The notes under the pieces are model-generated. The model was not told where the DNA came from, did not search any database, and was given only the letters and a program-made list of their open reading frames with translations. A program made the translations under genes and the position numbers. DNA of 64,000 nt from Desulfovibrio sp. MES5 (GTDB lineage Bacteria > Desulfobacterota > Desulfovibrionia > Desulfovibrionales > Desulfovibrionaceae), in the NCBI RefSeq assembly GCF_002237645.1, contig NZ_MJUZ01000032.1, positions 1-64,000 of the forward strand, in the 5' to 3' direction. This document shows positions 126 through 13,943 of this stretch, piece by piece. Position 1 is the stretch's first letter. Each line of letters begins with the position of its first letter.

Positions 126-3100
126 CACGTCAGGGTGGTCGTTATTCAGGGTGTAGGTATAGCTGCCATCAGGCATAAGGGTGATGGTGCCGTACTTGGT
201 GACAATCATATTGTCAGTGCCCCTGGTGCTTGCGTCTCCGCTATCAGAGGACGTAAAGCCCGTCAGCTTGAGGCCGGCATCGTAGTAGCCATCGCCGCCC
301 ACCTTGCCTTTGGCCGTGTACTCCACATCTTCTTTGACGGAATTGTGCTGATCTTCCAGCCCGGTGCCAGGGTGCCCACCGCCGCCTTCGCCCGGATTGG
401 GATTGGGATCAGGATTGCCCGTACCGCCACCGCCACCGTGGTCCGCATCAGGACCGGCAACCTTGATGACAAGTTTGATGGGGTCTTCAGACGTGGCATT
501 GTGGGGGTCGCGCACATAGACGTCAAAGATTTCTTCCGTAATGGCTTTAGAGTCCCCGTCGACAAGGTCTTTGTAGTTAGCGCCGTACTTGTCCAGAGTA
601 TACTGGTACGAACCATCGCGCTGGATAATAAGCGTGCCGTATTTGCCGACAATCTCCTGCACCAGGTTGCCCTGGGCCTCGCCAGTGGCGGCTTTGCCGT
701 CAACAGCAAAGAAGACGAGTCTGCTCTGATCGCCGTGGTCGACGTCCTTGACGATACTTTGCGATTGGAGCGATCCGTTTACGGTAAGGTTCCCACCATT
801 TGTCCTATCCCAATGGGCCATTTCGTCGCTGTCCACAACAACGGCATGGCCATCCCTCTGGTCAAAAGTGAACTTGGAGGTGACTGTTTTTTCGGTGAGA
901 CTGTTGGTGTAGGTCACCGAAACGCCGCCGGATGTTTCTGAGGTCACCACCGGAGCGTCATTGGTGCCATTGATGGTGATCACCAGATTATCTTTGGTCG
1001 TTTCGCCATCGTGATTTGTTCCCGCACCGGTCACGGTGACAGGCACGGTTATGACTACGGATTCTCCAACGGCAAGGTTGTTTATGGGCGCACCAAGGGC
1101 ATCACCGTCCTTGAGAGGTTCAAACGTGTACTTTCCATCGGGCCAGAGCGTGAGAGTGCCGTAGCCGTTGATGGTGTACACGGAGGAGCCGTTGCTGCCG
1201 GAAACAGGGCCGCTGATGTCGCCGATGTTCGCGCCGTCGTTTTCAGCCGCTGCGGGAAAGCTCACAGTGGGTTTTTCGTACGTATAGGCATCGGAGACGC
1301 CTGAACCGGAACCGGGCCTGTCTGACAAGTCCGGATCGTCCACATGGAGTTGCCCATTGATCACAAAATCTGTATCAGCAGGCCTTCCGTTGTTGGGGTG
1401 GTTCGCGCCAAGGTGGTGCACATGTCCGTGGCTGCTCGTGCCGTCATAATGCAGATAGTAGTAGGTCTCGCCCGGCAGGTCCGAGCCGTCCACGCCGTCT
1501 TCCTTGATACCGCCCTTATTGCCCTCAAGGGTGCCAGGATCATCATTGCCGTTGATGGTGATGACGATGGGCTTTACTTCGGAGTATGCGCCGTTGGGGT
1601 CTTTTACGCGCACGTAAAAGGTATCTTCAGCGGTTTCGTTGTTGTTGAGCCAGGTGAGATCATTGGTGCGGGTATAGGTAAACGCGCCCGTCTGCTGATT
1701 GATTTCAAGAATGCCGAACTTGCCCTGGACAATAAATGTGTCGCTTTTGAGGTCAAAGTTGGCTTCATCGGACAGATCATCACCACGCAGAGCGTCGTTG
1801 GAAACGGATTTTCCGGGCAGCAGGTTGACCAGCGAGAAAGTAAAGCCGTCACCGGCAGATACAACTTCAGAATGCCATGTCTGGTCTGTCGGGTCGTACG
1901 TGCCGGCATCCTCATAGTCTGTAATGGCAATTTGCCCCTTGAGAATCTTGCCTTCGCCGTCAAATCCACTGCCAGTATTCTTGCCATAGTGTTCTTCCAT
2001 GGACATATCAAGAGTGCCAAGGTCAATGATGGGTCTGTCATTGGTGCCTTGCACTGTGACATCGGCAGGCGTCGTGTTCACAGGCGGGCCTGTGATGACA
2101 TGATTGCTGTCGGTTTCATACACCCGCACTTCAAAGTCGTCAGACAGCTTTTCGTTGAAGTTCAGCTTCTGCACATCGGGGTTATCGTTGTTGAGTTCAT
2201 ACGTATACTTGAACGGAGGAGTGTCGTCGGTCGCTCCGTCCGCCTTGGTGCGCTCGATAATGAGCTTTCCGTATTTGAGCTCGATTTCGATGGAGTCCTT
2301 CCCGCTCATGAGCGTGTTGACGTCATGAAGGCCGCCGTCGCCGTCTGCGATAACGTAGTGCATCTTGGCATCTGCGCCGGGATTGTTCAGGGCTTCCTGG
2401 TCGCTCTTGTCAACATCGTGGGCGTAGATTTTGCCGGTGGATTCGGGCTGTCCCTTTTCTTCGTTCTGGTACTGCGCCTTGTACACCGTGTCCTGACTGT
2501 CGGTAGCCCGCACAAATCCGGCAGGCATAACGCCGTTTTCCACAACAATGCCACGGCCGCCGGAAAGCCCGGTGCTGGTGGGATCATCACTGCCGACCAC
2601 TTCAAAAATCAGCTGTTTTTCATCATACGCGCCAAACTGGTCACGGATGGTGAGGGTGAAGTCATCCTTGCCAATTTCATTTTTGCCCACAGCGGCGGCG
2701 CGTATGGGATCTATCACATAGCGGTAAGTGTAGGTGTCGTTGGTATGGTCACTACCTGAGGAGGTGCGCACAACATACAGGTCGCCGTACAATCCGCTGA
2801 CCTTGATGGTGTTGTCGGATGTGCTGCTGGCCAGATCAATGCCATCGGCGTGAGTGGTATTGTTTTCTACCTTGATGTCGAGGCCGTTCTTCATGTCCAG
2901 CGCATCCACATCGTGGATGGTCAGCTTGCCAGTGGCCGTCTGGACACTCTTGTCATCCTGGAAAATGCCGCCCACATCGCCGGTCATGGCGGCATTGTCG
3001 TGCGCGATGGTGAGTTCGGGAACGTCGTTGGTGCCGACAATGGTAATGACAATCTGGCCATTGCCCACTGTGGTGTCCTGTCCGTCGCTTACCGTGGGCG

Positions 3101-5519
3101 AAAGGGTTATGACCTTTTGTTCACCTTCGCTCAGTCTGTCTGCGGGGCCGCCGGATGCATTATTGAGAGTAAATGTAAAGGTTCCATCGGCATTCATGAC
3201 CAGAGTGCCATAGTAATTGTCATTGCCGGGAGCCTGGTCGGTAACGGTGCCGTTGGCAAGATAATAGACAGTGGTCGAGCCGTCCGCAGCCGCAGCAATG
3301 GGCGATCCGCTTGAATTGGCCATGCCGTAAGTCAGCTTGGCGTCGTCGCCGAAGTCCACGTCATCAGCCTTGACGTGACCGTTAAAGGTCAGTTTGTGCT
3401 GCTCATTGCGCGTGGCGTCGTCAGCCAGACTGGCATCACCGACATCCTTGGTGGGAGTTTTTTCCGCGACATTGGGGAAGAGGTCATTGTCATTGGGCGC
3501 GAACACGCCGCTTTCCTTAACAGTGCCCTTGCTGCCTTCAGTAAAATAAGGAGCGTCATTCGCGCCAACAATCTGAAGTTTCAAATGAATATCGTTCCAT
3601 GCGCCGAATTCGTCCTTAACAACGACGTCAACTCCCACAAGCAGGGTGTCGCCCTCGTTCATGCCCTGAACGCAGGTGGAACTGTTCTTGAGGGTAAAGG
3701 AGTAGGAGGCGCCGTTGGATCCGCTGTTGGTGGTAATCGCCAGCGTGCCGTAATAGTCTGTGGTGTTCAGTGCATGAAAGTCCGCTTCGGTAAGCAGAAC
3801 ATAACCATCAGCGCCGTTGGGCACGACATAAAGCTTGCTGACCATCTCCTCCTGGCCAGAAGAAGACGTCACCTTGAAGCCATAGCGCAGCTGAGCGTCA
3901 TTGTCGTAGTCCGTGGCGGTTATCGAGCCTGTGACTTTGACGTTGTCGTTGGCGCCGCTGGCATCATTGGCCTTGCCGGATTCCTTGATGCTTTCATGGT
4001 TCACGCCATTTTCGTCGGGCAACATCTGCGCGTTGTTCCAGTGTGCGGCATCGTCGGTGAAAATCGGGCGGTCATTGGTGCCAATGATATTTACGTCAAT
4101 GGTGTTGTCTCCGCCCACAGGGATGCTGCCGTCACGCAGGTGGTCGACATCATAGTCCTTCAGGCCATACTCGTCCTGCACTGAAGGCCTGAATTGCAAG
4201 TGCACTTCCTGGCCTTCAGCAAGAGCGTTGGTTTTGCCGCCAGACTCAGTGCCGGTAAGGGTAAACGTATAGCTGCCTGATGAAGTATCAAGGCTGAGGT
4301 CGCCATATTCAGTGTGGTAAATGGTGATGTTGGGATTGGCGGAGTCAACTTCAATGCCTGTGACTGTTACGGGCAGTGTTCCATCAACAAAGCCCACAAC
4401 ACTGCCGACAGCCAGGGCGTTGCCAGAATTGTCAGCGATGCCGTAGGTCAGTACGCTGTCGTGATCAGGATCGCGCGCGATGATCTGGCCTTCAATGGCG
4501 GTTCTGTGCTGATCCGGCCCTGTGCCGCCAGCCTGGGTGGAGGCGTTTTCATTGGGATCAAGCGTGTTGGTGGTGTCTTTTTGACCGTAGCTTCCCGCAA
4601 AGACGCCGTCCTCTTTCAGCACAACGTCATCAACCCTGATAATGTCGGGTGCGTCATTGGTGCCTTCAATTACGACATTGATGGGTTGTGTTATGCCGGT
4701 ATTGATGCCGTCAGTGACGGAGACAACAATGCTGTCAGTGTGGATTTCGCCCTGTTTCAGCGAGTCTGCGTTACCGTAGTCTTCATTGTTCAGGGTGTAG
4801 GTATAGTCGTAGGTCACATTTGAACCGGTGTTGGAAGGCGTAATGGTAAATGTGCCGTAATCGGTGGTTATGGTGGTGGTGCCTGTGGCATTAACGGCAT
4901 AGGAGGTCCCGTTAATGACGACAGAGGCGCTGAGGGAATCGCCGTCAGGATCATTGGCTGTAAAGCTGCCGCTCATGGTGGGCACGCCAGGCTCAGGAAC
5001 AAAGTTTCCAGAGGGGGTTTTAGCCCAGCCGGATTCCTTGAGCGAAAGGGTAATCAATTCGCCATTGGTATTCAGAATAGGGGACAGGTTGGGCACCGGC
5101 GCACTCAAAAGGTTTTCAGAATCGGCAGTGCCGAGGGAAAAACCATAGTCAAGCCCGCCAAGATGGTCCAGGCCGCCTTGCAGGTCGCTATTGACGTATT
5201 CGCTGTAGTGGCTGTCGCGCCCCGTGGTTGCAGGGCCAGCCGCAGGCATGAGGTCCGGGCCCATGGCGGCAAAAAAGTCGGCGCTGCTGACGAGCTGACC
5301 GTCAACTTCGAAATTTGGGGCAGTGTCCTTGGTATATTCTGTGTAGAAATTTTCAACACGGACGCTGGAGCCGTCGTCAAAGCGGAACAAAAGGTCATTG
5401 CCAGAACGCTCAAGGGTTGCTTCGTCAGCAGGGAAGTTCAAAGCAATTCGCGCATCGGCTTCCGCTGACACAAGGGCCTGCTGCGAAGCCGCTGGACGGG
5501 TAATAGTAACAGTACGCAT
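123..5519 (-). CDS. Giant LapA/BapA-type VCBS-repeat adhesin, truncated by IS
   Basis: Predicted biofilm adhesin of 1798 residues. Start ATG at 5519 follows GGAGG by 5 nt; an upstream in-frame TTG is less likely. Residues 1-95 form the N-terminal retention-type module found in type I secreted adhesins, ending in PAAG (about 92-95), which fits the di-alanine site cut by LapG periplasmic proteases. From about residue 145 there are eight VCBS units, each closing with a GTNDAP-like motif (GTNDAP, GTNDRP, GANDAP, GTNDVP, GSDDPT, GTNDRP, GNDDPG, GTNDAP). A glycine/proline/asparagine linker and a further, incomplete unit follow. The frame ends inside that unit (LNNDHPDV then TGA) at a probable IS end. 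The C-terminal RTX/type I secretion signal expected for the family is therefore missing, and the product is probably not exported. The N-terminal half is intact, so the disruption looks recent. Confidence 0.85.
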   Translation of the reverse strand: MRTVTITRPAASQQALVSAEADARIALNFPADEATLERSGNDLLFRFDDGSSVRVENFYTEYTKDTAPNFEVDGQLVSSADFFAAMGPDLMPAAGPATTGRDSHYSEYVNSDLQGGLDHLGGLDYGFSLGTADSENLLSAPVPNLSPILNTNGELITLSLKESGWAKTPSGNFVPEPGVPTMSGSFTANDPDGDSLSASVVINGTSYAVNATGTTTITTDYGTFTITPSNTGSNVTYDYTYTLNNEDYGNADSLKQGEIHTDSIVVSVTDGINTGITQPINVVIEGTNDAPDIIRVDDVVLKEDGVFAGSYGQKDTTNTLDPNENASTQAGGTGPDQHRTAIEGQIIARDPDHDSVLTYGIADNSGNALAVGSVVGFVDGTLPVTVTGIEVDSANPNITIYHTEYGDLSLDTSSGSYTFTLTGTESGGKTNALAEGQEVHLQFRPSVQDEYGLKDYDVDHLRDGSIPVGGDNTIDVNIIGTNDRPIFTDDAAHWNNAQMLPDENGVNHESIKESGKANDASGANDNVKVTGSITATDYDNDAQLRYGFKVTSSSGQEEMVSKLYVVPNGADGYVLLTEADFHALNTTDYYGTLAITTNSGSNGASYSFTLKNSSTCVQGMNEGDTLLVGVDVVVKDEFGAWNDIHLKLQIVGANDAPYFTEGSKGTVKESGVFAPNDNDLFPNVAEKTPTKDVGDASLADDATRNEQHKLTFNGHVKADDVDFGDDAKLTYGMANSSGSPIAAAADGSTTVYYLANGTVTDQAPGNDNYYGTLVMNADGTFTFTLNNASGGPADRLSEGEQKVITLSPTVSDGQDTTVGNGQIVITIVGTNDVPELTIAHDNAAMTGDVGGIFQDDKSVQTATGKLTIHDVDALDMKNGLDIKVENNTTHADGIDLASSTSDNTIKVSGLYGDLYVVRTSSGSDHTNDTYTYRYVIDPIRAAAVGKNEIGKDDFTLTIRDQFGAYDEKQLIFEVVGSDDPTSTGLSGGRGIVVENGVMPAGFVRATDSQDTVYKAQYQNEEKGQPESTGKIYAHDVDKSDQEALNNPGADAKMHYVIADGDGGLHDVNTLMSGKDSIEIELKYGKLIIERTKADGATDDTPPFKYTYELNNDNPDVQKLNFNEKLSDDFEVRVYETDSNHVITGPPVNTTPADVTVQGTNDRPIIDLGTLDMSMEEHYGKNTGSGFDGEGKILKGQIAITDYEDAGTYDPTDQTWHSEVVSAGDGFTFSLVNLLPGKSVSNDALRGDDLSDEANFDLKSDTFIVQGKFGILEINQQTGAFTYTRTNDLTWLNNNETAEDTFYVRVKDPNGAYSEVKPIVITINGNDDPGTLEGNKGGIKEDGVDGSDLPGETYYYLHYDGTSSHGHVHHLGANHPNNGRPADTDFVINGQLHVDDPDLSDRPGSGSGVSDAYTYEKPTVSFPAAAENDGANIGDISGPVSGSNGSSVYTINGYGTLTLWPDGKYTFEPLKDGDALGAPINNLAVGESVVITVPVTVTGAGTNHDGETTKDNLVITINGTNDAPVVTSETSGGVSVTYTNSLTEKTVTSKFTFDQRDGHAVVVDSDEMAHWDRTNGGNLTVNGSLQSQSIVKDVDHGDQSRLVFFAVDGKAATGEAQGNLVQEIVGKYGTLIIQRDGSYQYTLDKYGANYKDLVDGDSKAITEEIFDVYVRDPHNATSEDPIKLVIKVAGPDADHGGGGGTGNPDPNPNPGEGGGGHPGTGLEDQHNSVKEDVEYTAKGKVGGDGYYDAGLKLTGFTSSDSGDASTRGTDNMIVTKYGTITLMPDGSYTYTLNNDHPDV

Positions 5520-5660
5520 GAATGCCTCCAAAAAGCTTTTTCGCGAACTGAAAAACAGCTCAAGCGAAAAGGCTAGCTGTTCGCACAGAAATAGTGCGAA
5601 AGTTGGTTGCCCGAATCGGGCCTAAGTAGGGGATAAATAGGGAGCAGGCGGTACCTGCTC
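5520..5660 (-). promoter_or_regulatory. Structured 5' leader of the adhesin gene
   Basis: About 140 nt upstream of the adhesin start contain three compact inverted repeats: GAGCAGG/CCTGCTC near 5642-5660, GCCCGA/TCGGGC near 5609-5622, and TTCGCAC/GTGCGAA near 5580-5600. These would form consecutive hairpins in the leader RNA. The function is unknown and the sequence does not match the c-di-GMP GEMM consensus as I recall it. Confidence 0.35.
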
Positions 5661-6810
5661 AAGGCTGCATGCCAATTAAAGACGGCATAGCCTCGTGCTC
5701 GTCAGGTGTGCATTGGCAGATTGACGCGCGCAGTGAAAAACGTGGACAGTGAAAAAAACGTGGGTAGTAAATAGAAGTTATTATCAAATGCTGATTCAAA
5801 TATACGTAGTTTAATGAGCTAGTCAAGGCATACACTTCATTAATTTGCCACGGGCTAATAGAAAACGCCATGCGTAAAGGTATTTTTTAATTGTCACATT
5901 TAGTATTTTAAAAAAGCATTTTGATATATTTGAAGCGTGTTTTTATTTATAATGTAATATTGTTTTTTTGTAAAAAAATAACAAGGAAGCCAATTTTTTT
6001 TAGAGTTCTGAAATGAGGTTTAGTATAATAATGCATGAAGATGTGTCATATGAATGTCCTGGCAGGCTTAAAAAAATTATCTTTGAGAAAAGATATCAAT
6101 TTGAACCACAGGTCGCCGGACTGCGAAAAACGCAGCTGGTGTAGGTGTTCCTCCAGGCAGAATGTGGGATGTTTGCGGTAATCATCTATAACAATCACTG
6201 AATATTTTATGGAGGATGCGGCATCGGGCAACCCCGTGGGGCCATCGAGTCGCGATTTCGGTACATATGTGAACACCCATAAACAAAGCAGCTTGGTAGC
6301 GTGTGGTAGATCCCTTTTTTTCAGATCTGCCGCTTTTTTGTTGTGGCAGGTTTTTCTCGCGGTCATTGGGCAGTTGCAGAGTATGTTTCATAAATATCTA
6401 CTTGTTGGGGACGAGAACACGCTTGTTCGGTACTATCATTATTATTTGCTGATAACTCAGTATGTTAAATATATTTCGGGGGTTATTCCTTTAATATTTA
6501 GCAGCAAATGTAGTTTGCCCTGAGCATAGTTTTAATGTTCCTGGTTTAATAACTAGCTGTATTGTTACTATATTTTAAGGTGCTTTTAGTATGTTATAAT
6601 CTTCACATTTTGTAGGAATAAAATTGACCAAAATGCTAGGTATATTGCTGAGAACATATGAATGCACTTAAGATCAATCCCATGAAAACGGGTCAGGAAA
6701 TCACAAAAAAGCCGCGGGTCGGGTCGTGATGTGGTGATGGGGCAATCGGCTGAGTAGCAGAACGCGGCTTTACGCTCCAACGGCCCATCCCCCACACAAA
6801 ACAGCCAACC
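5661..6810. other. Long AT-rich non-coding stretch upstream of the adhesin
   Basis: No open frame here has a good ribosome site and a protein-like composition. The stretch is distinctly AT-rich around 5760-6060 and 6400-6640. It holds a tandem repeat with unit CAGTGAAAAACGTGG at about 5730-5763. A long-range stem (GCCGCG at 6711 with CGCGGC at 6763) is followed on the minus strand by a T-run, which looks like a terminator for a minus-strand transcript. The rest is probably regulatory DNA for the adhesin. Confidence 0.4.
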
Positions 6811-6827
6811 TTGTGGGAGGTTCTGTT

Positions 6828-7034
6828 ATGGAAAGCTTAAAGAATGCCTTGTCTGCTGCTGTTGAATTTGGCGAATGCGTTTTTGTTACTGAAAAAGAAC
6901 GCGGAAATATCGGAATCATCCCCAGAGGCATAACCACCGATTGCGTTTTGTGTGATATCGTATCAGTTTCGCGCTCCTGCGATATGCCAAAGAGAAGGGT
7001 AAAGCTGGATCTTGGGGATCTTCAGCTGGTTTAA
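6828..7034 (+). CDS. Small hypothetical protein (68 aa)
   Basis: Start ATG at 6828 follows GGGAGG by 7 nt. The product (MESLKNALSAAVEFGECVFV...) has an alternating beta-like pattern and four cysteines, with no signal peptide or membrane segment. I do not recognise the family. The ribosome site lies in the 3' arm of an inverted repeat (CCCACA near 6791, TGTGGG near 6812), so translation could be controlled by RNA folding. A strong terminator lies about 260 nt downstream. It may be a real small gene or a remnant. Confidence 0.4.
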   Translation: MESLKNALSAAVEFGECVFVTEKERGNIGIIPRGITTDCVLCDIVSVSRSCDMPKRRVKLDLGDLQLV

Positions 7035-7291
7035 GCACCTGCACTTGGCAACGCAACCGACTGCAAAGAAAAGGGGCGCGCCCGAGCCACATTCTCGAGT
7101 TGCCTGCCGCTCCAACGGTGATGCTTCGCGACATACTGCCTGTGTGCAGTCATGGCTCTGGTGTTGACCACGGCGCCTACTCGGCCAAACACGGCGCTAT
7201 GAGGTTGCGTAACTACCTACATGAAAGAGTTGCTGGTCACATGCCTGTGGCCTCATTAATAGCGAAATCCTATGAGCTGTTACTGTCCGCT

Positions 7292-7339
7292 AACAAGGCT
7301 CATGACCAGGAAAAATGGTCGTGGGCCTTGTTCTTTTTG
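7292..7339 (+). terminator. Strong Rho-independent terminator
   Basis: A 17-bp stem (7292-7308 with 7316-7332, two G-U pairs), loop GGAAAAA and tail CTTTTTG. It must end a plus-strand transcript, but only the 68-residue ORF lies upstream. It also lies inside the longest local plus-strand frame (7100-7354), which argues that frame is not a gene. Confidence 0.75.
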
Positions 7340-7511
7340 TCAGCACAAGGATAAAAAAATCGAAAATAGCGACTATTCCATTTGCAGCGTCATGCATTCC
7401 TGTGTGGAGGGCAGGCCCGTGAGCCCGCATGCTTTCCTGACAATGATACGCCCCCTCGAACCGCGCCGGATAAGCCTGTTGACCTTAACTGACTACACTG
7501 TATTGCATGAA

Positions 7512-7668
7512 AATTTATCCAATATTGTGATTGAAAGCGGAAGGCGGTGTAAACCAGCCGAGGACGCGCCACTGTAACCGAAAATCGCAACCACTGTTGC
7601 GACAAACAACGGGAGGGTCAGGCGTCATGTTCAGTCATGAAGACCGGAAGATAGGAGATGGCTACTCA
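7512..7668 (+). promoter_or_regulatory. Cobalamin (B12) riboswitch, apparently orphan
   Basis: The conserved core is easy to see: GGAAGGCGGTGTAAACC at about 7539, then CGCGCCACTGTAACCG at about 7564 (the B12-box region). The 3' half has AGGGTCAGG and ATGAAGACCGGAAGA at 7614-7652. Order and spacing match class I cobalamin riboswitches. Downstream there is no recognisable cobalamin synthesis or transport gene on the plus strand. The next plus-strand frame (7681-8007) has no protein-like features and runs through a hairpin terminator. The regulated gene may have been deleted or decayed, or the switch may control a non-coding transcript. Confidence 0.8.
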
Positions 7669-7891
7669 TAATTACCGAGATTGGCGGGGCGCAGGCAGTA
7701 CTGTCCGCGTATAGCGCCGGAGTTGTTCGGCAGGGCCAAGCTGGACGGCTTTTTTGTGACTACGATTTGGAAAGGGGCCGTGACTTTTCGCCGCTACGCC
7801 ATATCCAGAATCAACTGGTTGTGTGCTTGGCCTCTTTTTTACCAGAACCGGCGAGCTGGAAACAAGCGCGCTTCAAAAGCGCGTGGTGCCG

Positions 7892-7950
7892 AAGCCGAAC
7901 AACTTGTTCAGCTGCATCAGCTTTGTTGTGTCCGCAGTTCGGCTTTTACT
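7892..7950 (+). terminator. Terminator-like hairpin downstream of the riboswitch
   Basis: AAGCCGAA (7892-7899) pairs with TTCGGCTT (7938-7945), with an inner CAGCTG/CAGCT stem and a short TTTTA tail. It would end a transcript that started before the cobalamin riboswitch, giving an RNA of roughly 450 nt. Confidence 0.45.
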
Positions 7951-8041
7951 CTGCTGAAGCGGGAATACGCTGAGCGTAGCAGGACCAGTGGAACTGATCT
8001 CGATTAGTGCTAGAACTCGTCGCTGAAATCTGAAAATGACA

Positions 8042-8077
8042 AAAATACGCCGCGACAGTGCTGCCAAAGTGCGGCGT
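8042..8077 (-). terminator. Hairpin with T-run on the minus strand
   Basis: ACGCCGC (8047-8053) and GCGGCGT (8071-8077) form a stem. On the minus strand it is followed by ATTTTTG. It could terminate the marR/flavin-protein transcript after a roughly 300-nt 3' region. Confidence 0.4.
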
Positions 8078-8151
8078 CTTCATGCAGGTTGGCCTTGCGG
8101 TAAGTATGGATGCAATTTTGTTGTAGCGCGTCCGTTTTGGTATGTAACGTG

Positions 8152-8183
8152 ACGCCCGGCCAGAGCAAGTCGTGGCCGGGCGT
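8152..8183. repeat. Perfect 11-bp inverted repeat
   Basis: ACGCCCGGCCA and TGGCCGGGCGT flank a 10-nt loop. There is no T-run on either side, so it is a stable hairpin of unknown role in the gene-free stretch 7670-8381. Confidence 0.4.
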
Positions 8184-8381
8184 TAAACAAATCTGCTGCG
8201 TAGCGCGAAAGGGGAGTCGGGCAACCTTGGAGCGGGTAGCATAATACCTTGGAGAGTCTCTATCCGCATCCGTAAGGTTTGGAGGCGTCCGGTTTGCGCG
8301 TTACGGCAAATAGTCTGCACTATGCCTTACAACGTGCGTCTGCGTATACAGCCGCCTGGGAAACCAAACTTTTAGATTGCT

Positions 8382-8795
8382 CTAAAAGGAACCTTTACGG
8401 GGCGGATTGCCGGAAAAATCAGCAATGATGTAGCCGCCATGCTCAATACAGAATGTGGTAAAATCCGGATTGTCCGCTGAGCCGTAAATGCCTTTGATCA
8501 GCGGCTGCTCGGACAATATACGCTCTTTTACGGCATGGCTGTCTTCAAAAGAGACCTTTCCAGTTATGCGAACCCAGGTCATGCTTGGGTTGACTGCGCA
8601 AATTTCAACTGCGGGATTCATCTGAAGCTGTTTGAACACATCTTTGCTTCTGGATGTGCAGAACCACAACTTGCCAGCCTCCTCAAACTGATACTGAAAC
8701 GCTCGTACATGCGGCTCATTATTGCAGGACGTGGCAATAAAGCACATGGGCGATTCGGACATAATATCGGAAATTTCTTTTACTGCATTGCTCAT
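8382..8795 (-). CDS. Pyridoxamine 5'-phosphate oxidase-like flavin-binding protein
   Basis: A 137-residue single-domain protein of the split-barrel PNPOx-like family. The N-terminal ESPMCFIATSCNNEPHVRAF and the central GKLWFCTSRSKDVFKQLQMNP are typical of the small FMN- or F420-binding members. The C-terminus (SGNPPRKGSF) resembles family members that end with a conserved basic tail. The usual role is binding a flavin and reducing or sensing small molecules; the substrate is unknown. It lies 26 nt behind the MarR-type gene on the same strand and is probably co-transcribed, which suggests redox or xenobiotic stress. The stop codon lies inside an inverted repeat (CTTTTAGA/TCTAAAAG, 8369-8388). 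Confidence 0.75.
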   Translation of the reverse strand: MSNAVKEISDIMSESPMCFIATSCNNEPHVRAFQYQFEEAGKLWFCTSRSKDVFKQLQMNPAVEICAVNPSMTWVRITGKVSFEDSHAVKERILSEQPLIKGIYGSADNPDFTTFCIEHGGYIIADFSGNPPRKGSF

Positions 8796-8821
8796 GGTAA
8801 TCCTCGGTTGTCTTGTTGGTT

Positions 8822-9265
8822 TTAGTTGTTTGTCAGGTTTTGGAGAATTGTTTCAAGGCATTGAATGCACTCTATTTGCTTTTGAGTTTCGATGCCGGTC
8901 CAGATTTTTTGCAAAAGCTCAACGGAAACTTCATCTTGCACCTGGCGCATGGCCTCTCCCTTTTCTGACAGGAATACCAGCTGGGCTCGGGCGTCTTGCG
9001 GATCGGATTCGCGGCGGCAATACCCTCTGTCTTCAAGAGTGGCTATCAGTCCCGTAACCGTGTTCTTTTTTCTGCCGATGTGCTCCGCCAGTTCGTTCAT
9101 TTGCATAGGACTTTGCTTGAACAGAGCGTTCAAAACAGCGCCGTGAGCCGGGAGTATGTCGGTGATGCCGCGTTCAGACAGAGAGCTGAGAATCAGGGTG
9201 TTTGCCTGCTCACGAATGGCAGCAGCCAGGGCGACAATCGCGCCGGGATTGTTTTGTTTTTTCAT
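8822..9265 (-). CDS. MarR-family transcriptional regulator
   Basis: 147 residues with a winged-helix MarR core. The helix-turn-helix falls in MQMNELAEHIGRKKNTVTGLIATLEDRGY (about 54-82), followed by the wing RRESDPQDARAQLVFLSEKGE, with the DxRA motif typical of the family. It acts as a dimer on palindromic DNA. Start ATG at 9265 follows GGGGAG. The promoter region carries two copies of a GTTCGC-NN-GCGAAC palindrome, so autoregulation is likely. The downstream flavin-type protein is probably in the same operon; the ligand is unknown. Confidence 0.85.
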   Translation of the reverse strand: MKKQNNPGAIVALAAAIREQANTLILSSLSERGITDILPAHGAVLNALFKQSPMQMNELAEHIGRKKNTVTGLIATLEDRGYCRRESDPQDARAQLVFLSEKGEAMRQVQDEVSVELLQKIWTGIETQKQIECIQCLETILQNLTNN

Positions 9266-9279
9266 GGCTCCCCATGTTT

Positions 9280-9326
9280 GTTCGCAGGCGAACTATTGCG
9301 GGTTTCTTTTTAGTTCGCCCGCGAAC
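9280..9326 (-). promoter_or_regulatory. Paired palindromic operators upstream of marR
   Basis: Two 14-bp inverted repeats share GTTCGC-NN-GCGAAC: 9280-9293 (centre AG) and 9313-9326 (centre CC). They are 33 bp apart, about three helical turns, immediately upstream of the MarR-type start. Their symmetry and place fit binding sites for the MarR dimer. Confidence 0.65.
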
Positions 9327-9664
9327 ATAAGTCAACAATTTTCTCAAAAAGAATGACATGTGCCACTACAGGCTGTAATTCATAACATTTTGTGGCGCAA
9401 TCTGACCATTTGTTCTTGGCTCCGCTTTTCAATCGCATCAGGCATGGCATGGCAACTTGCTGGACGCTTTAGGGGATTCCAAAAAGTTTAATATTGTCAC
9501 GCGGGTGCGTCTGGCGCATCCGAACGCCAGATGATTTATGGACGCAGGGCCGTCGTGGTAAAAAATCATGGGGCTGTTCGTTAAAGCTCACTTAAAGCTG
9601 TGACTGGGACAGGAATGCAGCGGACGAGATATGCGCTGATATGCGACGGCAAATATTTAACCAG

Positions 9665-9704
9665 CGAAAAAAGGCTCATGAGTCCTTACCAGGCATCATG
9701 AGCC
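9665..9704 (-). terminator. Rho-independent terminator next to candidate att site A
   Basis: Minus-strand stem GGCTCATGA/TCATGAGCC (9696-9704 with 9673-9681) followed by TTTTTTCG. It sits 15 nt beyond a sequence ending in CACCA that resembles the 3' end of tmRNA, so it may be the original ssrA terminator displaced by island insertion. Confidence 0.6.
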
Positions 9705-9719
9705 GTGCAGAAAAATTTG

Positions 9720-9735
9720 ATGGTGTAGGCGGGGG
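9720..9735 (-). repeat. Candidate att site A (diverged ssrA 3' end)
   Basis: ATGGTGTAGGCGGGGG matches 15 of 16 bases of the tmRNA 3' end at 13565-13580, in the same orientation and likewise followed by a terminator. It is interpreted as the distal attachment site of the island inserted at ssrA. Confidence 0.5.
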
Positions 9736-9894
9736 CTAAGGAACGGGGTTCTTCAGACGAAGTTATGATGAAAGAGGTTGTAGAGATGGCGGCTTAATGT
9801 CTCTTCCATCTGCTTATATGTCTTTGAAGGAGTCCAAAGAGGGTGCCGTCAACTGCCTCCTTATTATGTCAGCAGTTGGCAACACTGCAAATCA
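9736..9894. other. Gap without a recognisable gene
   Basis: The sequence between candidate att site A and the IS200/IS605 element has no coding frame that looks real. I see nothing specific in it. Confidence 0.3.
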
Positions 9895-10470
9895 GCACCA
9901 CCCGCATAGCGGGTGGTTTGCTCTGGCCCTGTAAGGGCCTGTTGCCGGCTGCGCCTAAAGACGCTGGCTTTCACTGCGTTCAAGCCCAGTGCCATTGTCG
10001 CTTTGGCTACCCCTTGAAGGGGTTTGATACTCGCGCGTACTCAACTTATCTTGCAAAATGTCATGCTTCTCCTGCTGCTGGATATATTTTTTGATCGTTG
10101 CCTCGTTGAGTCCGACTGTGCTGACATAGTATCCTTCGGCTCAAAACTTTCTGTTGCCGAACTTGTACTTAAGGTTTGCGTGGTTATCAAAGATCATCAG
10201 TGAGCTTTTGACTTTCAAATACCCCATAAAACTCGATACGCTGATCTTTGGCGGGATACTCACCAGCATGTGTATATGGTCTGGCATCAAATGTCCTTTT
10301 AAAATCTCTACCCCTTTGTACTTACAAAGACTCTGCATGATTTCTTTTATACTATCGCGCAGTTGTGCGAATATTATTTTTCTTCGATACTTAGGGGTAA
10401 ACACGATCAGGAAGGGTGTTTTTATGTGTATAACACTTTGTCCCCACCCGCATAGCGGGTGGTTCTCTGT
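9895..10470 (-). mobile_element. IS200/IS605-type element (degenerate)
   Basis: A single Y1-transposase reading frame on the minus strand is flanked by two identical hairpins, CCACCCGCATAGCGGGTGG, at 9898-9916 and 10444-10462. Subterminal imperfect palindromes of this kind are the recognition structures of IS200/IS605 elements. Exact ends cannot be fixed, as the family makes no target duplication. Confidence 0.75.
9955..10440 (-). pseudogene. tnpA: IS200/IS605 TnpA transposase with internal stop
   Basis: The first part reads IVFTPKYRRKIIFAQLRDSI and MPDHIHMLVSIPPK, containing the HUH-type HIH metal site of Y1 transposases. At 10141-10143 a TGA replaces the tryptophan codon of the conserved FW-x-x-GYY motif. 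Reading through gives AEGYYVSTVGLNEATIKKYI and about 62 further codons to a TAG at 9955. The catalytic tyrosine helix (IKKYI) lies after the stop, so the truncated product cannot carry out the nicking reaction. No convincing start codon is visible at the N-terminus. Confidence 0.8.
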
Positions 10471-10512
10471 TTCGCGCGCTGGCGCGCTCAACTGGCTAAA
10501 GCCATAAAAGAA

Positions 10513-10687: not shown

Positions 10688-11002
10688 AGCTGAATCCTCC
10701 TTGTGATGTATGAGGATGCTCTAGAGCTTGATTAATTCATGCAGAAAATCATTACAAAATGCAAGTAAAATAAATTTAGTAATTATATATAGTTGAATAG
10801 AATATGCTGTTTTAACTTGTAAAAAAGTACGCAGTAGTCGCAGAGGTCTGGTTCAGCAATGGATTATGTGGAGGTTTTGCCGCTGTGGCATGTCAAAAGA
10901 TGGTGGCGTCCGATCCTGATCGCGGTGGAGTGTAACCCCACGTCAATAAGCTGGAAGATAAGGTCATGTTCAGGAAAGACCTTCAACATAGCCAAAACAA
11001 AA

Positions 11003-11034
11003 GCCTCACGAGCCTTTGTGAGACATCGTGAGCC
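11003..11034 (-). terminator. Terminator-like hairpin next to candidate att site B
   Basis: CTCACGA/TCGTGAG stem (about 11005-11032). On the minus strand it is followed by GCTTTTGTTTTG. As at sites A and C, it lies just beyond a sequence ending in CACCA. Confidence 0.5.
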
Positions 11035-11050
11035 TTGCTGAAATTGTTTG

Positions 11051-11066
11051 ATGGTGGAAGGGATGG
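11051..11066 (-). repeat. Candidate att site B (weak ssrA 3'-end match)
   Basis: On the minus strand the sequence around here ends in CCCTTCCACCATCAAA. It aligns with the tmRNA 3' end at about 15 of 19 positions and shares CACCATCAAA with site A. It may be the junction of a second island or an internal scar. Confidence 0.3.
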
Positions 11067-13516: not shown

Positions 13517-13555
13517 AAGTCCCACAATGCTTATGAAACATTGTGGGACTTTTTG
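13517..13555 (-). terminator. ssrA terminator: Bidirectional terminator beyond ssrA
   Basis: A perfect 13-bp stem (13517-13529 with 13539-13551) with T-runs on both sides (TTTTT on plus, GGCTTTT on minus). It lies 15 nt past the tmRNA 3' end. Confidence 0.75.
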
Positions 13556-13565
13556 AAAAGGCTAA

Positions 13566-13943
13566 TGGTGGAGGCGGGGGGAATCGAACCCCCGTCCGAG
13601 AACATTCCACTCGAAGCATCTACAGGTTTAGTTCAGGAATAGATTTCACCACGTTGTTGGCCCCTGAACAGGCGCAACGCAGCAATCTCGCCGGTAACCT
13701 CCTCGCGGAAAACCCCGGTGAGCTCCGGTCTCCGCCAGCCTGATAAGTGTCGCCATCCAGGGTTATCAGGCATGGCCCTGGACGACGTGACCGTTAAACG
13801 GTCGTTGCCTCGCTGTTATTAGGCAGCGTAAGCGTAGTCGTAATCGTTGTTGGCAATTACTTTTGTGCCGCTTTTTACGAGGCCAGCGGCGCCTCGACCT
13901 GCCGCTAAGGCTTCCACGTCCCCGTCGAAACCAGTGCGCCCCC
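13566..13943 (-). ncRNA. ssrA: Transfer-messenger RNA (tmRNA)
   Basis: The RNA rescues ribosomes stalled on broken mRNAs. The 5' end GGGGGCG pairs with CGCCTCC just before the 3' ACCA, making a 7-bp tRNA-like acceptor stem with one G-U pair. The T-arm GGGGGTTCGATTCCCCC is intact. The resume codon and tag read ANNDYDYAYAA followed by TAA at about 13818-13850, a tag typical of Desulfovibrio. At 378 nt including CCA the length fits one-piece tmRNA. The 3' end is the probable integration site of the neighbouring island. Confidence 0.97.

Follow-up and report, generated by a model that had tools for sequence, protein, structure and literature searches.

Cobalamin riboswitches upstream of metE, the gene for the B12-independent methionine synthase, are known from sulfate reducers such as Oleidesulfovibrio alaskensis G20 (accessible part of PMC11124144), and the pairing role of the kissing interaction between their loops L5 and L13 is described for the riboswitch family in the accessible part of PMC9600662. 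One related case of a riboswitch beside broken genes, in which these are adhesin-like fragments, is found in the portion of PMC9600381 available to us. The locus described here lies in a window of 64,000 nucleotides, the whole stretch of DNA analysed, from Desulfovibrio sp. MES5 (genome G000). As far as the available parts of these sources go, it shares with the O. alaskensis switch the riboswitch class and the original target family, metE, but differs in that metE has gone by deletion and nothing more than a 3′ piece of a metE-like gene survives; with the adhesin case it shares the position of a riboswitch next to broken genes, but here the remnant is metE-like and a deletion junction has been identified. 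The locus is almost certainly an evolutionary relic, a worn B12 riboswitch leader fused to the decayed tail of a metE-like gene, for which the grounds are the homologues of leader and tail in relatives, the breakpoint between them, the lesions in the tail, an intact riboswitch-metE unit elsewhere in the genome and a closest relative at this locus that lacks the segment. Its features are:

7074 to 8110, no strand assigned: segment holding the relic, 1,037 bp, represented by about 62 bp at this place in relative G057, with homologous flanks on both sides
7499 to 7676, forward strand: decayed cobalamin riboswitch aptamer (RF00174; cmscan 33.2 bits, model positions 1 to 189), the lowest-scoring of the five RF00174 matches in the genome
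7564 to 7568, forward strand: putative L5 kissing-loop bases ACGCG (ACGCG in 6 of 9 aligned relatives, GCGCG in 3 of 9)
7701 to 7714, forward strand: putative P13/L13 hairpin of the expression platform (CTGT-loop-ATAG, with CGCGT in the loop)
7714 to 7720, forward strand: deletion junction between the leader and the 3′ part of the metE-like gene, from blastn breakpoints and junction sequences
7715 to 8039, forward strand: pseudogene remnant, the last ~30% of a metE-like gene (NF005085-type 5-methyltetrahydropteroyltriglutamate--homocysteine S-methyltransferase), from DNA, protein and codon alignment
7894 to 7947, forward strand: terminator-like hairpin of the first-pass annotation, wholly inside the metE-like remnant

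The aptamer matches the full length of the RF00174 model with a score above the gathering score of 31.5 bits (E 1.1e-4), and its L5 and L13 loop sequences are complementary, as in other members of the family; unlike these, it carries altered core positions, has a low score and has lost the gene it regulated. The first-pass annotation, made from the letters alone, had proposed a cobalamin riboswitch with well-conserved core motifs and no B12 gene behind it, followed by an apparently non-coding transcript closed by a terminator-like hairpin. The aptamer and the lack of an intact B12-related gene directly 3′ of it, where there is only a frameshifted metE-like remnant, both stand; the conserved core, the non-coding transcript and the terminator are not confirmed.

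We searched positions 7450-8100 of the window at the DNA level against 79 genomes of the genus, G000 included; 18 genomes matched, its own among them, and eleven loci around the leader matches were fetched for comparison. In nine of the eleven (G001, G007, G014, G021, G049, G052, G053, G055 and G059) metE lies 3′ of the leader. In G001, metE is followed by a second gene of 377 aa, which belongs to NF005085 (‘metE2’) and carries a PF01717 domain, so that the two families at this locus are NF003556/TIGR01371 for metE and NF005085 for the metE-like gene. In G048 a 397-aa metE-like gene of the NF005085 family comes immediately after the leader. At the eleventh locus, on contig C3 of G022, the leader is poor and the stretch fetched shows no match to metE. 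Since metE, the metE-like gene or both follow the same leader in relatives and a remnant of the tail follows it here, the orphan status of the switch is explained.

Other leaders in the genus were noted along the way. In G008 (L021, 1480-2576), a 78.3-bit cobalamin riboswitch precedes a metE without its middle, matching residues 1-175 and 692-753 only, apparently another riboswitch-metE locus in decay. The G022 leader (L043, 8732-8928, reverse strand; 23.8 bits) is seemingly half an aptamer, and the metE of this genome lies on a different contig, in three pieces; a fluoride riboswitch (RF01734, 52.9 bits) is found at 4176-4234 of the same stretch. In G010 (L018, 1491-1683), a 21.4-bit cobalamin leader that is seemingly interrupted in its 3′ half lies upstream of an intact metE, which might thereby be left unregulated.

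The leader matches those of relatives up to position 7714, which in G001 corresponds to a point shortly before metE (blastn), and from there on the window matches the 3′ part of the metE-like gene: that of G001 over 7714-7767 (84% identity) and 7891-7994 (71%), that of G048 over 7720-7991 (66%) and that of G059 over 7720-8009 (66%), with E-values of 1.7e-8, 7e-7 and 5e-9 against the fetched G001, G048 and G059 loci. The pieces to the left and right of the junction thus match separately, with a gene lying between them in these three genomes, and the DNA missing between the breakpoints measures about 3.2 kb when compared with G001 and G059, and about 1 kb when compared with G048. Among the matches listed, none from the other 78 genomes spans the junction. 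The exact junction pattern had no match in genome_contigs either, and among the best 80 rows of a scan with the metE-like protein the highest identity was 61%.

At the protein level, the remnant is recognised with an E-value of 5.2e-9 when read through two TGA codons and one TAG, and a codon alignment reaches the stop of the metE-like gene near 8039 with four frame-changing indels of 1-2 bases in about 325 nt. When 7714-8036 was shuffled, 0 of 300 shuffles reached the observed score against each of three targets under two scoring schemes, and the opposite strand, under one of the schemes, scored inside the shuffle range. The remnant aligns, through the G001 and G048 members, with the last ~110 codons of NF005085/PRK06520, but is frameshifted, carries stops and lacks the first ~70% of the gene; it is colinear with the 3′ end of the gene in DNA and protein and bears disabling lesions, and as for an intact protein of the family, the ORF at 7681-8004 matches no NCBIfam or Pfam family at E 0.001. 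The DNA after the riboswitch, first described as apparently non-coding, is therefore a metE-like gene's 3′ end in a decayed state: a normal B12 gene follows the same leader in G001, G048 and G059, and the downstream DNA of the window aligns as its remains. This is the outcome that the first-pass annotation had named as its own refutation, and it makes the locus a simple relic.

In an alignment to nine relatives, several core positions of the aptamer prove to be worn, and the L5/L13 complementarity has been kept. The aptamer departs from the relatives at 11 of 89 columns that are invariant among them. Where 8 of 9 have (C/T)CAGGAGAC, the window has ATAGGAGAT; GGG(A/C)AGG, found in 9 of 9, is GGGAGGG in the window; and in the (A/G)CGG(A/G)CGCG stretch an invariant C is replaced by A. 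The core motifs had initially been called well conserved, an impression contradicted by these changes and by a score below 15 of 17 related leaders. These (L007-L023) comprise 15 at 54.3-82.9 bits and two under the 33.2 bits of the window, namely the seemingly half aptamer of G022 and the apparently interrupted leader of G010. We rejected a low Rfam score alone as proof of decay because the latter, at 21.4 bits, stands upstream of an intact metE. In matched sets of eight relatives, changed invariant columns number 11-16 in the window and 0-10 in relatives, with two of the high relatives (G048 and G014) affected by alignment gaps or shifts, so that the excess over relatives is only modest; judged by eye, cmscan does not seem to mark more non-standard pairs in the window than in relatives. 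ACGCG at 7564-7568 can pair with CGCGT at 7706-7710, and all nine aligned relatives have a P13/L13 counterpart with CGCGT, complementary to L5, downstream of the aptamer. Because the aptamer scores above the gathering threshold and this complementarity is kept, residual ligand binding is possible.

Two functional readings concern the leader. In one, the fused leader has been retained as a B12-responsive small RNA that ends at the hairpin at about 7950, in favour of which one may cite the aptamer score, the preserved L5 and L13 sequences and the presence of a 7-bp stem (7894-7900/7937-7943) followed by TTTT. But stem and T run lie within what was metE-like coding sequence: the 3′ arm with the T run corresponds to codons for Gln-Cys-Gly-Phe (QCGF), CAGTGCGGnTTTT in three aligned relatives. 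A consensus terminator scan limited to loops of 3-8 bases does not list the hairpin, and the stretch 7499-7960 (462 nt) folds no better than its shuffles (z −0.95, 16 of 100 shuffles at least as stable). With core aptamer positions altered, no junction-spanning match among those listed for the other 78 genomes and the segment missing from the closest relative at the locus, we consider this reading very improbable. It is just as hard to credit that the leftover leader is still transcribed, binds B12 and works on its own as a B12 sponge or a small RNA from a dead operon; if it did, it would be a case of a leader captured from such an operon for this role. A structured non-coding RNA downstream of the switch was rejected, the fold being like that of shuffles and the hairpin lying in former coding sequence. 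A strong 17-pair hairpin followed by CTTTTTG, terminator-like, is seen at 7292-7332 on the forward strand, upstream of the riboswitch and within the segment missing from G057.

A further reading, that the switch controls a new short protein, has in its favour an open frame of 108 aa at 7681-8007. This ORF has its start inside the leader and runs on across the junction, the metE-like protein match shifts frame within it, and at E 0.001 neither Pfam nor NCBIfam has a family that it matches, on which ground the candidate was rejected; we give the reading practically no credence.

Of the three possibilities raised at first for the locus, a relic of a deleted gene, a B12-controlled regulatory RNA and an attenuator for something not recognised, the relic is thus the one borne out, and can be specified as that of metE and/or the short metE-like gene; the regulatory RNA gains no support from fold or hairpin, and we found nothing in favour of the attenuator.

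How the relic came to its place can be approached through G057, the closest relative at the locus in that it gives the best match to window positions 7990-9300 among the other 78 genomes. Its fetched stretch (L159) is homologous to window positions 126-6130 (87% identity), 6589-7073 (84%) and 8111-9445 (83%; blastn), and since about 62 bases with homologous flanks stand in place of the 1,037, a near relative lacks the segment at this site. The fetched 19.9 kb of G057 contain no metE or metE-like protein match and no RF00174 match; the genome's own metE has a leader of 59.0 bits (L023). The segment was either lost in G057 or gained in G000. A variant compatible with the relic holds that an already broken riboswitch-metE piece was acquired by horizontal transfer rather than inherited vertically. 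The absence from G057 despite flanks of 83-87% identity speaks for it, as does the closeness of the leader to those of G007, G053 and G001 (94.2, 93.3 and 74.3 bits) compared with the leader on contig C4 of its own genome (56.3 bits); a clean loss in G057 fits the former equally well, and reading the sequence by eye brought no mobile-element boundary to notice at 7074 or 8110. We regard this variant as possible, though rather unlikely.

The surroundings hold several other elements: a short ORF of 68 aa (MESLKNALSAAVEFGECVF...) at 6828-7034 on the forward strand, in a stretch 84% conserved in G057; an IS200/IS605-type transposase (NF033573, PF01797) at 10144-10491 on the reverse strand; a tmRNA gene (RF00023, 202.4 bits) at 13566-13943, also reverse; and three short stretches, at 9669-9738, 10994-11058 and 13531-13588, which look like a dispersed repeat since all match one place in the fetched G057 stretch. 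That stretch also carries an sRNA-Xcc1 match (RF02221, 58.2 bits against a gathering score of 53) at 1827-1910 on its reverse strand.

The other four RF00174 matches of the G000 genome (92.3, 86.7, 59.4 and 50.7 bits) precede genes for an anaerobic ribonucleotide reductase (PF13597), a FecCD-type permease (best NCBIfam match BtuC, below the cut-off of that model), metE (PF08267, NF003556) and a CbiK-type cobaltochelatase (PF06180), so that B12-regulated genes of the expected kinds follow all four; three of them (nrdD, btuC-like and cbiK) resemble the Desulfovibrio set in the accessible part of PMC545781, a likeness that is suggestive only. The metE, on C4, is intact and full length, 69% identical to that of G001, and sits behind the 59.4-bit riboswitch. 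A MetH-type protein is also present, scoring below the curated cut-off of its family like all those in the genus. Long MetH matches there extend no further than about positions 840-865 of a model with 1182 positions, and none of the 79 genomes passes the cut-off, from which we take MetH of the genus to be without the C-terminal part; MetH without the reactivation domain is reported for Geobacter and possibly Desulfuromonas, and not for Desulfovibrio (accessible part of PMC545781). With an intact riboswitch-metE unit and a MetH-type protein in the genome, loss of the locus would be tolerable.

For the relic, we infer the following history, in which both the ancestral repression by B12 and the present lack of function are part of the reconstruction. 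The riboswitch would have served as leader to a B12-repressed transcription unit for methionine synthase. This unit would have held either metE with the short metE-like gene behind it, the layout of G001 and G059, or only the metE-like gene, the layout of G048; the arrangement in which metE precedes the metE-like gene or what remains of it occurs in more genomes (G001, G059, G055 and G022) than the one with the metE-like gene by itself (G048). By the mechanism described in the literature for the riboswitch family, B12, when present, would be bound by the aptamer, L5 would kiss L13 and expression of the B12-independent enzyme would be lowered, because the B12-dependent MetH can then take over. 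A deletion then took out all the DNA from the end of P13 (7714) up to the last ~30% of the metE-like gene; leader and tail have both gathered substitutions, and the tail frameshifts as well.

The locus is an ordinary evolutionary leftover and no new regulatory RNA, and it matters little past annotation. It illustrates how aligning the ‘non-coding’ DNA downstream of an orphan riboswitch to the genes that follow the same leader in relatives can resolve such a case. Within the genus, 76 of 79 genomes have a MetH match, and metE is full length in 15 of 79, broken in two more (G008, without its middle, and G022, in three pieces) and represented in three others by short or weak matches only. The metE-like gene occurs in 6 of 79, as one open frame in G001 and G048, split over two frames in G059, interrupted by stops in G022 and G055, and in G000 as the remnant described here, while six further genomes matched the search through metE itself only; where a genome is a draft, some of the breaks could stem from sequencing errors. 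The relic thus adds one more case to the few apparently broken riboswitch/metE loci of a genus in which the MetH type is nearly universal and metE sporadic.
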